Part shown: in pieces, positions 3,867-62,764 of the stretch
Layout: each line of letters begins with the position of its first letter
Numbering within the stretch: position 1 is the stretch's first letter
Assembly: GCF_003287285.1 (NCBI RefSeq)
Contig: NZ_QMIG01000004.1
Span: 62,001 to 126,000, forward strand
DNA from: Phytoactinopolyspora halophila
Lineage (GTDB): Bacteria > Actinomycetota > Actinomycetes > Jiangellales > Jiangellaceae
Direction of reading: 5' to 3'
DNA length: 64,000 nucleotides
Program-made: the position numbers and the translations under genes
Notes under the pieces: model-generated
Told to the model about the DNA's origin: nothing
The model's input: the letters and a program-made list of their open reading frames with translations, nothing else
Database searches by the model: none

Positions 3867-5102
3867 CTATTTGAGAAAGTCCGGCACGTCGAGCTCATCA
3901 TCCGATGGCACGATCCGACGCTGGTCGCGAGGCGGAGGCGGCGCCGCCGGCTCCGCACGCTCCGGCTCCTCACGACGGGGCTGCGAGGAGGTCTCCCTGT
4001 CGGCTTCGCCGACCTCTTGTGGCTCGTCGGAACGGCCACCGGCCTCGCGAGCAGCCTCGATCGGGGTCACGCCCTCGCCGGAGGTCCCCTGCTCGCCCGC
4101 GTCACCGCTGTGGTCATCGCCACGGCGCACCGTGCCGACCTCGCGACGCGGTGGAAGACCGCCGTCGAATCCGGCGGCGATGACCGTGACGCGCACCTCG
4201 TCACCGAGGGCATCGTCGATCACCGCACCAAAGATGATGTTTGCTTCGTCGTGCGCCGCCTGAGCGACCAGGTTCGCCGCCTCGTTGATCTCGAAGAGTC
4301 CGAGGTCGGAACCACCGGATACGGACAGCAGCACTCCGTGCGCGCCGTCGATGGACGCTTCGAGAAGCGGCGACGATATCGCCATCTCCGCCGCGGCCAC
4401 GGCCCGGTCTTCCCCGCGTGCCGAGCCGATTCCCATCAAGGCGGACCCGGCATTGCTCATGACGGACTTCACATCGGCGAAGTCGAGATTGATGAGACCT
4501 GGAGTTGTGATCAGATCAGTGATGCCCTGGACACCGGACAGCAGCACCTGATCGGCGCTCTTGAAGGCATCCAGCACGCTGACCTGGCGATCGCTGATGG
4601 ACAGCAAGCGATCGTTGGGGATCACGATCAGCGTGTCCACTTCTTCGCGCAGAGCCTCGATTCCCGCTTCGGCTTGCAGGGCCCGCCGCCGTCCTTCGAA
4701 CATGAACGGGCGGGTGACCACACCAATAGTGAGCGCGCCGAGCGAGCGTGCGATCCGTGCGACCACGGGAGCTCCCCCGGTCCCGGTGCCACCGCCCTCG
4801 CCCGCCGTGACGAACACCATGTCGGCGCCCTTGAGCACCTCTTCGATCTCTTCGCCGTGGTCTTCGGAGGCATCACGACCGACGTCGGGATTGGCCCCCG
4901 CGCCCAACCCTCGGGTCAGCTCGCGGCCGACGTCGAGCTTGACGTCGGCGTCGCTCATCAACAGTGCCTGCGCATCAGTGTTGATCGCGATGAACTCGAC
5001 ACCCTTGAGGCCGACTTCGATCATGCGGTTGACCGCGTTGACGCCGCCACCACCGATGCCGACGACCTTGATCACCGCGAGATAGTTCTGCGGAGCAGTC
5101 AC
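3867..5102 (-). CDS. ftsZ: Cell division GTPase FtsZ
   Basis: FtsZ is the tubulin-like GTPase that builds the division ring. The 411-residue product is nearly identical in pattern to Streptomyces Fts[11 protein letters not shown] near the N-terminus, the GTP signature [10 protein letters not shown] around residue 105, and the C-terminal interaction peptide [10 protein letters not shown]. An acidic and Pro-rich variable linker spans about residues 320-400. I chose the GTG at 5102 (starting [12 protein letters not shown]) because it matches the family N-terminus and has GAGAGG about nine bases upstream. A longer TTG start at 5135 is less likely. The gene is separated from ftsQ by a strong hairpin, so it probably has its own promoter in 5103-5250. 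Confidence 0.97.
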
Positions 5103-5142
5103 GTCCAGTCGCCTCTCAATCGAGTTCGCCTCCAACTCTCAC

Positions 5143-5155
5143 CCTCAAGTTGAGG
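5143..5155. promoter_or_regulatory. 13-bp palindrome in the ftsZ upstream region
   Basis: CCTCAAGTTGAGG is a perfect palindrome about 40 bp before the ftsZ GTG. A TTGACA-like hexamer (minus strand, 5171-5166) lies just upstream, but no -10 element at normal spacing could be identified. The palindrome may be an operator of an ftsZ-specific promoter. This is inference. Confidence 0.3.
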
Positions 5156-5252
5156 TTTATAGTTATGTCAACCTGAGTGATGTTTTAGACGCTAGGTGCG
5201 CTAAAGCTTCATGCCACGCCGACACGCCGAAGCGGCCGTGATCGACATTCGC

Positions 5253-5336
5253 CACCCCGCCCGTCACCATGATCGTGTACGCATCCGCTCTCTTACAACG
5301 GCGGATGCGTACACGATCATGGTGACGGGCGGGGTG
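5253..5336 (-). terminator. 36-bp perfect inverted repeat between ftsQ and ftsZ
   Basis: The arms 5253-5288 and 5301-5336 are perfect reverse complements over 36 bp with a 12-nt loop. The right arm touches the ftsQ stop codon at 5337. No T-run follows on the minus strand, so it is either a GC-rich terminator or an RNA processing or stability element. The arms contain an ACGATCATGG core also seen in the hairpin at 62697-62764. Confidence 0.6.
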
Positions 5337-6074
5337 TCACGGCACGACCGAGGGGCTGTCCGGTGCGGACACGTCATAGGCCGACGGCGTTTCCTCGTGT
5401 TCGTCCATCAGCGCCAGCAGCACGCGGGCCTTGTCGGCGGTTCGCTCGTCGGTCCCCCACCGCACCGTGGCGCCACTCTCCAAGAGCAGCCGGACGTCGG
5501 CAACCGATTCCACCTCCACCTGCTCCACCAGCTCGTCGATGGAGTCCGGCAGGCCCGTGAGTACCGCCACGCCGGTGGCCCGGGCCAGCTGGGCGGTCTC
5601 TTCGGTGGGCGCCACCAGTACCGGGACGTTCTCCGGTGCCGAATCGGACTCGCCGAAGAGCACGCCCTCCTCGTCCACGCTCCACCACGAGCTGCCATCG
5701 CGGATCGCCGCCGCGGGGACCCTCGGCTCCACCTCGATGGTGATGCTGTGCGGCCACGACCGGTGCACGTCGACGTCGCCGACCTCGGGCAGCTCAGCGA
5801 CCCGTTCTCCGACGTCACCGGTGTCCACCCGGGCCAGCGGAACTCCCTCCGGGACCTCGGCCGTATCACGCACCTCGTCTACCACGTCCCCCTCGACGCC
5901 CGTGACCCGTACGTCCCGCACCGAGAGCACCGACGACCAGCCCACCAGCCATGTGGCGCCCGCCGCCGCGGCGAGCACCACGACCAGCGCCACGACCGTC
6001 AGGAACCTGCGGATACGCCGGCGACGGGCACGGGCGGCGAACCGTTCGGCACTCGTCGACCGCGCGGTGGTCAT
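5337..6074 (-). CDS. ftsQ: Cell division protein FtsQ
   Basis: FtsQ (DivIB) is a bitopic division protein that links the FtsW/FtsI synthase to the other septal proteins. The 245 residues give a basic cytoplasmic tail (RARRRRIRRF), one membrane helix (about 24-45), then the POTRA domain starting at SVLSVRDVRVTGV and the FtsQ domain with HSITIEVEPRVPAA. The ATG overlaps the murC stop as ATGA, so translation is coupled. The gene ends at a long hairpin. The length matches the actinobacterial family. Confidence 0.92.
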   Translation of the reverse strand: MTTARSTSAERFAARARRRRIRRFLTVVALVVVLAAAAGATWLVGWSSVLSVRDVRVTGVEGDVVDEVRDTAEVPEGVPLARVDTGDVGERVAELPEVGDVDVHRSWPHSITIEVEPRVPAAAIRDGSSWWSVDEEGVLFGESDSAPENVPVLVAPTEETAQLARATGVAVLTGLPDSIDELVEQVEVESVADVRLLLESGATVRWGTDERTADKARVLLALMDEHEETPSAYDVSAPDSPSVVP

Positions 6075-19980: not shown

Positions 19981-20095
19981 GTGCACGCTGAACCCACGTC
20001 GACTCCCCGCCGTGCACGCTGAGCCCACGTCGACTCCCCGCCGTGCACGCTGAGCCCACGTCGACTCCCCGCCGTGCACGCTGAGCCCACGTCGA
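19981..20095. repeat. Four tandem copies of a 31-bp unit
   Basis: Copies begin at 19981, 20012, 20043 and 20074. The first three are full length with one base difference, and the fourth stops after about 22 bp. The unit starts GTGCACGCTGARCCCACGTC. There are no spacers and the unit is not a multiple of three, so it is neither CRISPR nor protein coding. It lies in the long gene-free gap between the mraZ promoter and moxR (19776-20985). Confidence 0.9.
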
Positions 20096-20432
20096 TCGAG
20101 CTGTGAAAGCGCCTTCCCGGGTGCACTCACCGTGCACGGCGCTGCGGGACACACCTTTCGTCAGCTGGTCGTCATCGGCCCGGCCGTCTGCGGAGGACCG
20201 GGCAGATGAGGGAAACCCGCGTCCCGACGGCAAGCCGCCGCAACGTCAGCGTTTCCGCACAGCGTGCGGGCACGGGCATCGGTCGGAGTTTCGTGGCAGG
20301 TCAGAGGAGTTCTTCCGGTATCTCGGCCCGACGTCCGGCGCCGTGCAGCAGCCGTCGAACGTCCGTTCTCGCCCGGCCGAGAACGGATGGCGGGATGATC
20401 GCGACCATGTAGACGGTCAAGGCCGCCGAACA

Positions 20433-37940: not shown

Positions 37941-37986
37941 AGAAACCGACATCATCGAGGTGATGACCTCGATGATGTCGGTTTCT
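37941..37986. terminator. Bidirectional terminator between the S9 peptidase gene and hflX
   Basis: The 21-bp arms 37941-37961 and 37966-37986 are perfect reverse complements with a 4-nt loop (GATG). The element lies between two convergent genes, 99 bp after one stop and 68 bp after the other, so it can serve both. The outer arm ends in TTTCT on the plus strand and again on the minus strand. Confidence 0.75.
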
Positions 37987-62696: not shown

Positions 62697-62764
62697 CCTC
62701 TCCCATGATCATGAACACGTACACCCCCTACAGGGTCGACAAGTGTTCACGATCATGGGAGAGG
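62697..62764. repeat. 22-bp inverted repeat at the end of the amidohydrolase gene
   Basis: Arms 62697-62718 and 62743-62764 match in 21 of 22 positions (CCTCTCCCATGATCRTGAACAC) with a 24-nt loop. The right arm is inside the last codons of the amidohydrolase gene (encoding HDREH). It probably ends that transcript ahead of the recA control region. The GATCATGG core recalls the hairpin at 5253-5336. Confidence 0.6.

Follow-up and report, generated by a model that had tools for sequence, protein, structure and literature searches.

Why does a 36-bp perfect palindrome stand between ftsQ and ftsZ in Phytoactinopolyspora halophila? The two arms are complementary at 36 of 36 nucleotides across a 12-nt loop, and among inverted repeats of the window (the whole 64-kb stretch of DNA analysed; Table 1) whose arms are at most 200 nt apart, this one ranks first. 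The initial annotation had described a perfect repeat touching the ftsQ stop, and both points are exact: the arms occupy 5253-5288 and 5301-5336, and base 5336 directly adjoins the stop codon (TCA on the plus strand, 5337-5339). RNA folding of the 111 nt from 5240 to 5350 gave -84 kcal/mol; dinucleotide shuffles gave -37.9 +/- 3.5, and none of 200 folded as well (z -13). Three hairpins scoring at least 16 occurred in the real window compared with none in a locally shuffled one. The palindrome is therefore real and far above chance. An assembly artefact is unlikely because the arms lie within a 264-kb contig and like palindromes recur at many sites in several assemblies. Among Rfam models, the stem drew only microRNA precursors, all under their gathering scores and generic to perfect hairpins.

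Table 1. Coordinates of the features discussed, numbered from the first base of the window
Feature	Position	Strand	Remarks
Left arm	5253-5288		36 nt; core CATGATCGTGTACGC at 5268-5282, C-rich outer part at 5253-5267
Loop	5289-5300		12 nt
Right arm	5301-5336		36 nt; exact reverse complement of left arm; mirrored core at 5307-5321
ftsQ	5337-6074	-	stop codon 5337-5339 adjoins palindrome
ftsZ open reading frame	3867-5135	-	first possible start TTG at 5135
ftsZ upstream block	5133-5251	-	between ftsZ and palindrome; alignment of eight Jiangellaceae
Candidate FtsR (MerR-type activator) site AACTATAAACCTCAACTTGAGGGTG	5140-5164	-	nearly invariant in the eight sequences aligned
Second, clearer family copy (CCTCTCCCATGATCATGAACAC ... 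GTGTTCACGATCATGGGAGAGG)	62697-62764		upstream of recA, 182 nt from the recA gene

The ftsZ product matched its NCBIfam model above the cut-off; FtsQ was the best NCBIfam match for 5337-6074 (E 4e-37) but fell under the curated cut-off, and the protein is no longer at its C-terminus than its orthologues. By comparison with other actinobacterial FtsZ proteins, we take the true ftsZ start to be probably the GTG at 5100-5102, ~150 nt from the palindrome, which fills the space between a conserved ftsZ upstream block and the ftsQ stop. Positions ~5133-5178 of this block are nearly invariant across the eight Jiangellaceae aligned, and a piece of them is also matched in 11 genomes of other families; the palindrome-proximal part is conserved mainly with the genus Phytoactinopolyspora. 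Across the aligned Jiangellaceae, 5136-5172 is strongly conserved, reads GTTGACATAACTATAAACCTCAACTTGAGGGTGAG on the ftsZ strand and holds a candidate site for FtsR, presented in the part of PMC6683498 drawn on here as a MerR-type activator of ftsZ. The candidate shares 16 of 25 positions with the Corynebacterium glutamicum site, and the best chance matches in the window reach 17 of 25; identity by itself is thus no better than chance, and therefore only position and conservation favour an FtsR site.

In the 18 relatives measured, the hairpin is not conserved at the orthologous slot. One congener (G004) has a 274-nt gap holding a different 21-bp palindrome, and P. limicola has a 916-nt gap with another palindrome again, of 26 bp. 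In the remaining 16 the two genes are 0.9-4.2 kb apart, and a few of these gaps contain inverted repeats of 14-28 nt. Because relatives hold different palindromes or gene inserts there, the slot is a place where things insert. A conserved device for the FtsQ:FtsZ ratio is not supported, since the slot in relatives has other palindromes or longer inserts. As an observation in its own right, inserted genes occupy this gap in many Jiangellaceae (loci L035-L051): Pfam searches of ten selected insert open reading frames found DUF222 in two (one also with HNH), 60KD_IMP in four and MTES_1575/DUF559 in four, the last being restriction-endonuclease-like proteins.

The palindrome probably has relatives elsewhere in the genome. 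They are recognised by two TGATCATGAACAC cores that face each other and span 49-50 bp; the outer arms are rich in C, and the inner arms are of a type that varies from genome to genome. The core pattern CCATGATCRTGWACRC has 45 matches in the P. halophila genome, many as facing pairs 39-40 nt apart, and none when read backwards. The genome search for a palindrome family that the initial annotation proposed was positive: the exact paired pattern TGATCATGAACAC-N20-28-GTGTTCATGATCA has 102 copies in this genome and 0 when read backwards, a count that takes in exact copies only and leaves diverged copies out. The annotation had named a lack of related hairpins elsewhere as part of what would speak against it, and family copies in fact occur genome-wide. 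Exact pairs, counted in the same way, occur in four of five genomes of the genus Phytoactinopolyspora (g5), namely P. limicola (G007, 86), P. halotolerans (G010, 57), G004 (40) and P. endophytica (G012, 6). Of the 393 genomes of the class that were examined, the other 388 have none; in G003, a related pattern is matched twice, each time by a single arm. The named genomes among the matches listed (best 80 of 108 stretches) include P. limicola, P. halotolerans and P. endophytica. A structure model, R2, which leans on pairing, has matches in 21 of 22 family genomes, its match numbers (at most 150 recorded per genome) not being taken as copy numbers. Because the carriers are genomes of Phytoactinopolyspora, a genus of the Jiangellaceae, we treat the family as one of Jiangellaceae. 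It is probably a clade-restricted, non-autonomous, interspersed palindrome repeat that is not special to ftsQ-ftsZ. Within one full-text library, no title or abstract was found that describes a TGATCATGAACAC palindrome family.

The window itself holds a second copy, near recA, which is by its sequence a clear family member; the gene upstream of it (weak amidohydrolase-type matches) ends inside it. Other repeats were also recorded. A peptidase-like gene with weak NCBIfam matches lies tail to tail with hflX, and between them 37941-37986 forms a perfect inverted repeat of 21 bp, its loop 4 nt long, that has no match to the TGATCATGAACAC family models; 20008-20141 contains CGCCGTGCACGCTGAGCCCAC three times at 31-nt steps plus a facing inverted copy. 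Further palindrome types (L231-L270, L297-L316) begin TGATCATGTAAACC in G014, TGATCATGTTTGGT in both G004 and P. halophila, GGTGATCGTCAGTG in G004 and CTTGGGTCTGCGGAACGTCCAG in P. halophila. A repeat at G000:C12:92604-92682, TCCCCGCGTGCGCGGGGAGCATCCC, resembles a type I-E CRISPR repeat.

We consider it probable that the ftsQ-ftsZ hairpin is a diverged copy of this dispersed, REP/ERIC-like, non-autonomous Jiangellaceae palindrome, tolerated at gene ends, and not a cell-division device. Copies would disperse, perhaps by some form of mobility, and then persist mainly at gene 3' ends, where they would be least harmful. Each would place a strong symmetric hairpin in a 3' UTR, with whatever effect this may have on termination or mRNA stability. 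The dcw transcript would accordingly carry the hairpin just after ftsQ, and ftsZ would retain its own upstream region.

With a strict core, 94 of 124 copies have a gene 3' end in the core or no more than 40 nt away from it, compared with 17% of random 54-nt boxes in the intergenic gaps of 8-kb loci, a contrast somewhat inflated because the boxes cannot overlap genes but copies can; genes were called with a simple codon-usage caller written for the analysis. Sixty-eight of these 124 copies lie between tandem genes, 37 between convergent and 10 between divergent ones, with eight at locus edges and one within a gene. Gaps of 54 nt or more, copy-holding ones included, number 266 tandem, 68 convergent and 99 divergent. 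A relaxed core gives 159 copies, the stop-position set for which comes mostly from P. limicola and P. halotolerans, and here a stop falls inside or within 60 nt in 120 copies and in none of the remaining 39. Gene ends fall exactly at the TGA of TGATCA 55 times, in 48 of the 159 copies and on both sides in seven, and the 75 stops inside the element divide among the three frames as 55, 18 and 2 (binomial p 2e-12 for 55/75). Copies at gene ends add a few residues and often supply the TGA stop. The bias is weaker in the P. halophila genome, where a stop lies inside or within 60 nt in 23 of 35 copies. In an unbiased 400 kb of that genome, five of the eight family-type hairpins not deep in a called gene have a 3' end nearby, against 28% of random boxes, and two of ten lie deep inside called genes.

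Strong hairpins of other kinds behave similarly. Outside the TGATCATGAA type, and with those deep in genes excluded, 13 of 19, 13 of 14 and 25 of 36 lie near 3' ends in three 400-kb stretches, against 28-30% of random boxes; because other strong hairpins favour 3' ends too, gene-end placement is no proof of a family-specific function. TGATCA is present in 32 of 85 strong hairpins and ~4% of random intergenic segments. TCA in general does not follow TGA stops more often than expected in G014, in G004 or in the window. The idea of TGATCA as a tag common to unrelated hairpin families was not borne out: once hairpins were clustered by shared 10-mers, the TGATCATG types fell into a single cluster, so that only two of 37 clusters retained TGATCA.

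Could the palindromes instead be kept for what they do to transcripts? A selected terminator or insulator, which we regard as rather unlikely, would be a symmetric, bidirectional, factor-independent stem ending the dcw transcript after ftsQ, the palindromes having been recruited to gene ends with dispersal secondary. The initial annotation had proposed such insulation of ftsZ, and its positional part holds, the hairpin lying directly after the ftsQ stop and ahead of the conserved ftsZ upstream block; the lack of conservation in the 18 relatives and of a T-run speaks against the rest. No T-run flanks the ftsQ-ftsZ stem on either side, as an intrinsic terminator would have on one strand or the other, and the 30 nt downstream of 81 oriented family copies are 19% T and 40% G. 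(The consensus terminator scan allows loops of 3-8 nt only and is blind to a 12-nt loop.) Selection on the RNA should favour G-U pairs, but on the sense strand of those 81 copies, oriented by one neighbouring gene, stem mismatches comprise 88 G-T, 93 A-C and 294 others; with no G-U excess, no RNA-level selection is visible. The 37 copies between convergent genes, the other strong hairpins near 3' ends and the different palindromes at some orthologous 3' ends in different genomes are all consistent with recruitment for termination, but a strong terminator at the copy found between hisA and hisF would deprive hisF of transcription if that gene had no promoter of its own. Judged from sequence, transcription termination by family hairpins is possible.

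A broader reading, which we hold to be unlikely, makes the palindromes gene-end modules. Tagged with TGATC, they would correspond to the GTAG and CGTC REP superfamilies and would owe their spread to a trans-acting enzyme preferring stop codons. TGATC near the stem base is common to the TGATCATGAACAC, TGATCATGTTTGGT, TGATCATGTAAACC, GGTGATCGTCAGTG and TGATCATTGGCTTTT palindrome types, the insides of which differ. Because the TGATCA in each arm has TGA on both strands, one element can end both convergent genes, and under this reading one hairpin would serve both convergent messages.

Returning to dispersed copies tolerated at gene ends, the way in which the arms match is informative. In a partner-swap test that left the ftsQ-ftsZ copy out, the outer arms of 35 P. 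halophila copies show a perfect run of 6.9 nt with their own partner compared with 1.7 +/- 0.4 nt when swapped, and those of 123 copies from other genomes 6.1 compared with 3.9 +/- 0.1 nt. Inner arms also match their own partner better in two length classes (6.67 vs 5.75 +/- 0.19; 9.56 vs 8.38 +/- 0.11), but within-copy matching is no better in a third (41 copies; 6.76 vs 6.63 +/- 0.19). At one locus (L221) the symmetry runs 24 nt into unique flanks that are even coding, and both neighbours end at the element's TGA. Within-copy arm matching, the lack of any wobble sign and symmetry into unique flanks together make a DNA-level process the simplest account: the arms of each copy would be kept alike, most probably because replication switches template across the hairpin, and the same switching would lengthen the palindrome at the expense of unique flanks.

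How copies might move was also addressed. Y1_Tnp (PF01797, RAYT-type) was found in 0 of 22 family genomes and in five of 14 control genomes, which speaks against RAYT mobilisation. Lone arms numbered 12 among 266 in the stretches scanned, which are parts of genomes, and these stretches contained no facing lone-arm pairs 0.3-4 kb apart, the mark of the parent transposon from which a MITE would derive.

Orthologous sites have differing occupants. For the hisA-hisF pair, which NCBIfam models identify as hisA-trpF type and hisF, the genes overlap without a palindrome in G014, and a palindrome is present in G004 and P. halotolerans, each with its own inner-arm type; in P. halophila a hisA-like gene also ends in a family copy (L081). 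The HisA-type protein ends in EVAS in G014 and G004 and in VASPHDHEH in P. halotolerans, and in P. halophila it has a longer tail ending ADHEH. G014 also lacks the counterpart of another copy (L078) at the orthologous site, and the place of the recA-side copy holds a different palindrome in G004 and no hairpin scoring at least 16 in G014. At some orthologous 3' ends, the type of palindrome changes from one genome to the next. Two further sites each have a copy in two species, with differing inner arms, so not all copies need be recent. Alignments of empty and filled sites at hisA-hisF and L078 show no clean target-site duplication, their flanks being too diverged.

Does the ftsQ-ftsZ copy itself belong to this family? 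Models were built from 21 other copies, with this one outside the training set. The sequence-only model scores the palindrome at 18.5 bits (E 6e-5, either strand, 5258-5331), and the model of sequence plus pairing at 57.5 bits (E 8e-15, 5256-5333). In 400 kb of the P. halophila genome, 11 copies (one of them a training copy) score 35.9-59.4 bits on sequence and the best non-family match 13.5 bits (E 0.014), below the ftsQ-ftsZ copy. Its core spacing of 50 bp (5270-5319) is that of the family, in which the 159-copy set, this copy included, has spacings of 50 (90), 49 (68) and 47 (1). It also has the C-rich outer arm, and the ftsQ stop lies 17 nt from the TGATC core, so that it shares the family's position at a gene 3' end. 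It departs from the core consensus at three places, each time in both arms, and its inner arm reads CATCCGC where the common type in this genome is AGTCGACC-TATG; a search allowing up to three mismatches found no further pair with that inner arm in the 22 family genomes. The hairpin is likely a diverged member of the TGATCATGAACAC family; likely rather than certain, because 18.5 bits is well under 35.9-59.4 and the inner arm is private.

Those same two features would suit a palindrome particular to this locus, made by a single template-switch event and resembling the family by chance. Its inner arm is unique in the genome as a pair, its sequence-only score reaches at most about half that of ordinary members, and, according to the portion of PMC8794818 consulted, one template switch can make perfect arms. 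We think this origin quite improbable: the match stands at E 6e-5 on sequence alone and on both strands, and chance would also have to supply the family's 49-50 bp core spacing, C-rich outer arm and 3'-end placement. An RNase III type processing site setting the FtsQ to FtsZ ratio, which the initial annotation had also suggested and which is proposed for NEMIS in Neisseria in the part of PMC2229807 used, would suit a long perfect stem of -84 kcal/mol but is highly improbable, with no conservation at the locus in the 18 relatives measured and no sign of RNA-level selection on family stems.

Taking the ftsQ-ftsZ hairpin as a diverged copy of a dispersed palindrome turns the story of a gene-specific ftsQ/ftsZ switch into a genome-wide one, of abundant clade-restricted palindromes that alter gene 3' ends, add C-terminal residues and stop codons, and seem to keep their arms alike through a process acting on DNA. 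This genome supplies ~100 natural replicates for studying the origin, spread and tolerance of long perfect palindromes in GC-rich Actinobacteria, which could also show if a hairpin of this sort can stop transcription with no T-run behind it.

Known bacterial repeats offer several partial parallels. In the passages of PMC3733652 used here, REPs of the GTAG and CGTC superfamilies lie mostly between unidirectional or convergent genes near 3' ends, GTAG REPs often supply the stop codon TAG, and CGTC REPs have no dedicated RAYT either. The TGATCATGAACAC family is also short, present in many copies, near gene 3' ends and stop-supplying (TGA in place of TAG). It differs in its core of 53-54 bp plus outer arms, compared with the 20-40 bp of REPs described in those passages; in its symmetry, with no GTAG or CGTC tag at either end in an alignment of 21 copies; and in the absence of a Y1_Tnp (RAYT-type) gene from 22 family genomes. 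The phyla that the same passages name do not include Actinobacteria, to which this family belongs. Small size, strong secondary structure, mostly intergenic location and mobility that is not established or is borrowed are shared with ERIC, NEMIS/Correia, RUP and YPAL elements, as the part of PMC2229807 drawn on describes them. Most of those have TA termini and target-site duplications, whereas the TGATCATGAACAC family runs into unique, often self-matching flanks and shows no clean duplication at the two empty and filled sites aligned. Prokaryotic 3'-end stem-loops, some of them possibly bidirectional terminators according to sections of PMC1590033, have a like placement after stops and between convergent genes; unlike the stem-loops of those sections, TGATCATGAACAC stems share a conserved core as members of a single sequence family, and they lack terminal A/T runs. 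The perfect arms and the changes on both sides together recall the template-switch hairpins of PMC8794818, in the portion consulted; relative to that portion, template switching in the TGATCATGAACAC family would concern a dispersed bacterial repeat, with symmetry reaching in some copies into coding flank (L221). The closest kinds are REP, ERIC and NEMIS; from REPs the TGATCATGAACAC family is set apart by having no tags, no RAYT and a larger size.
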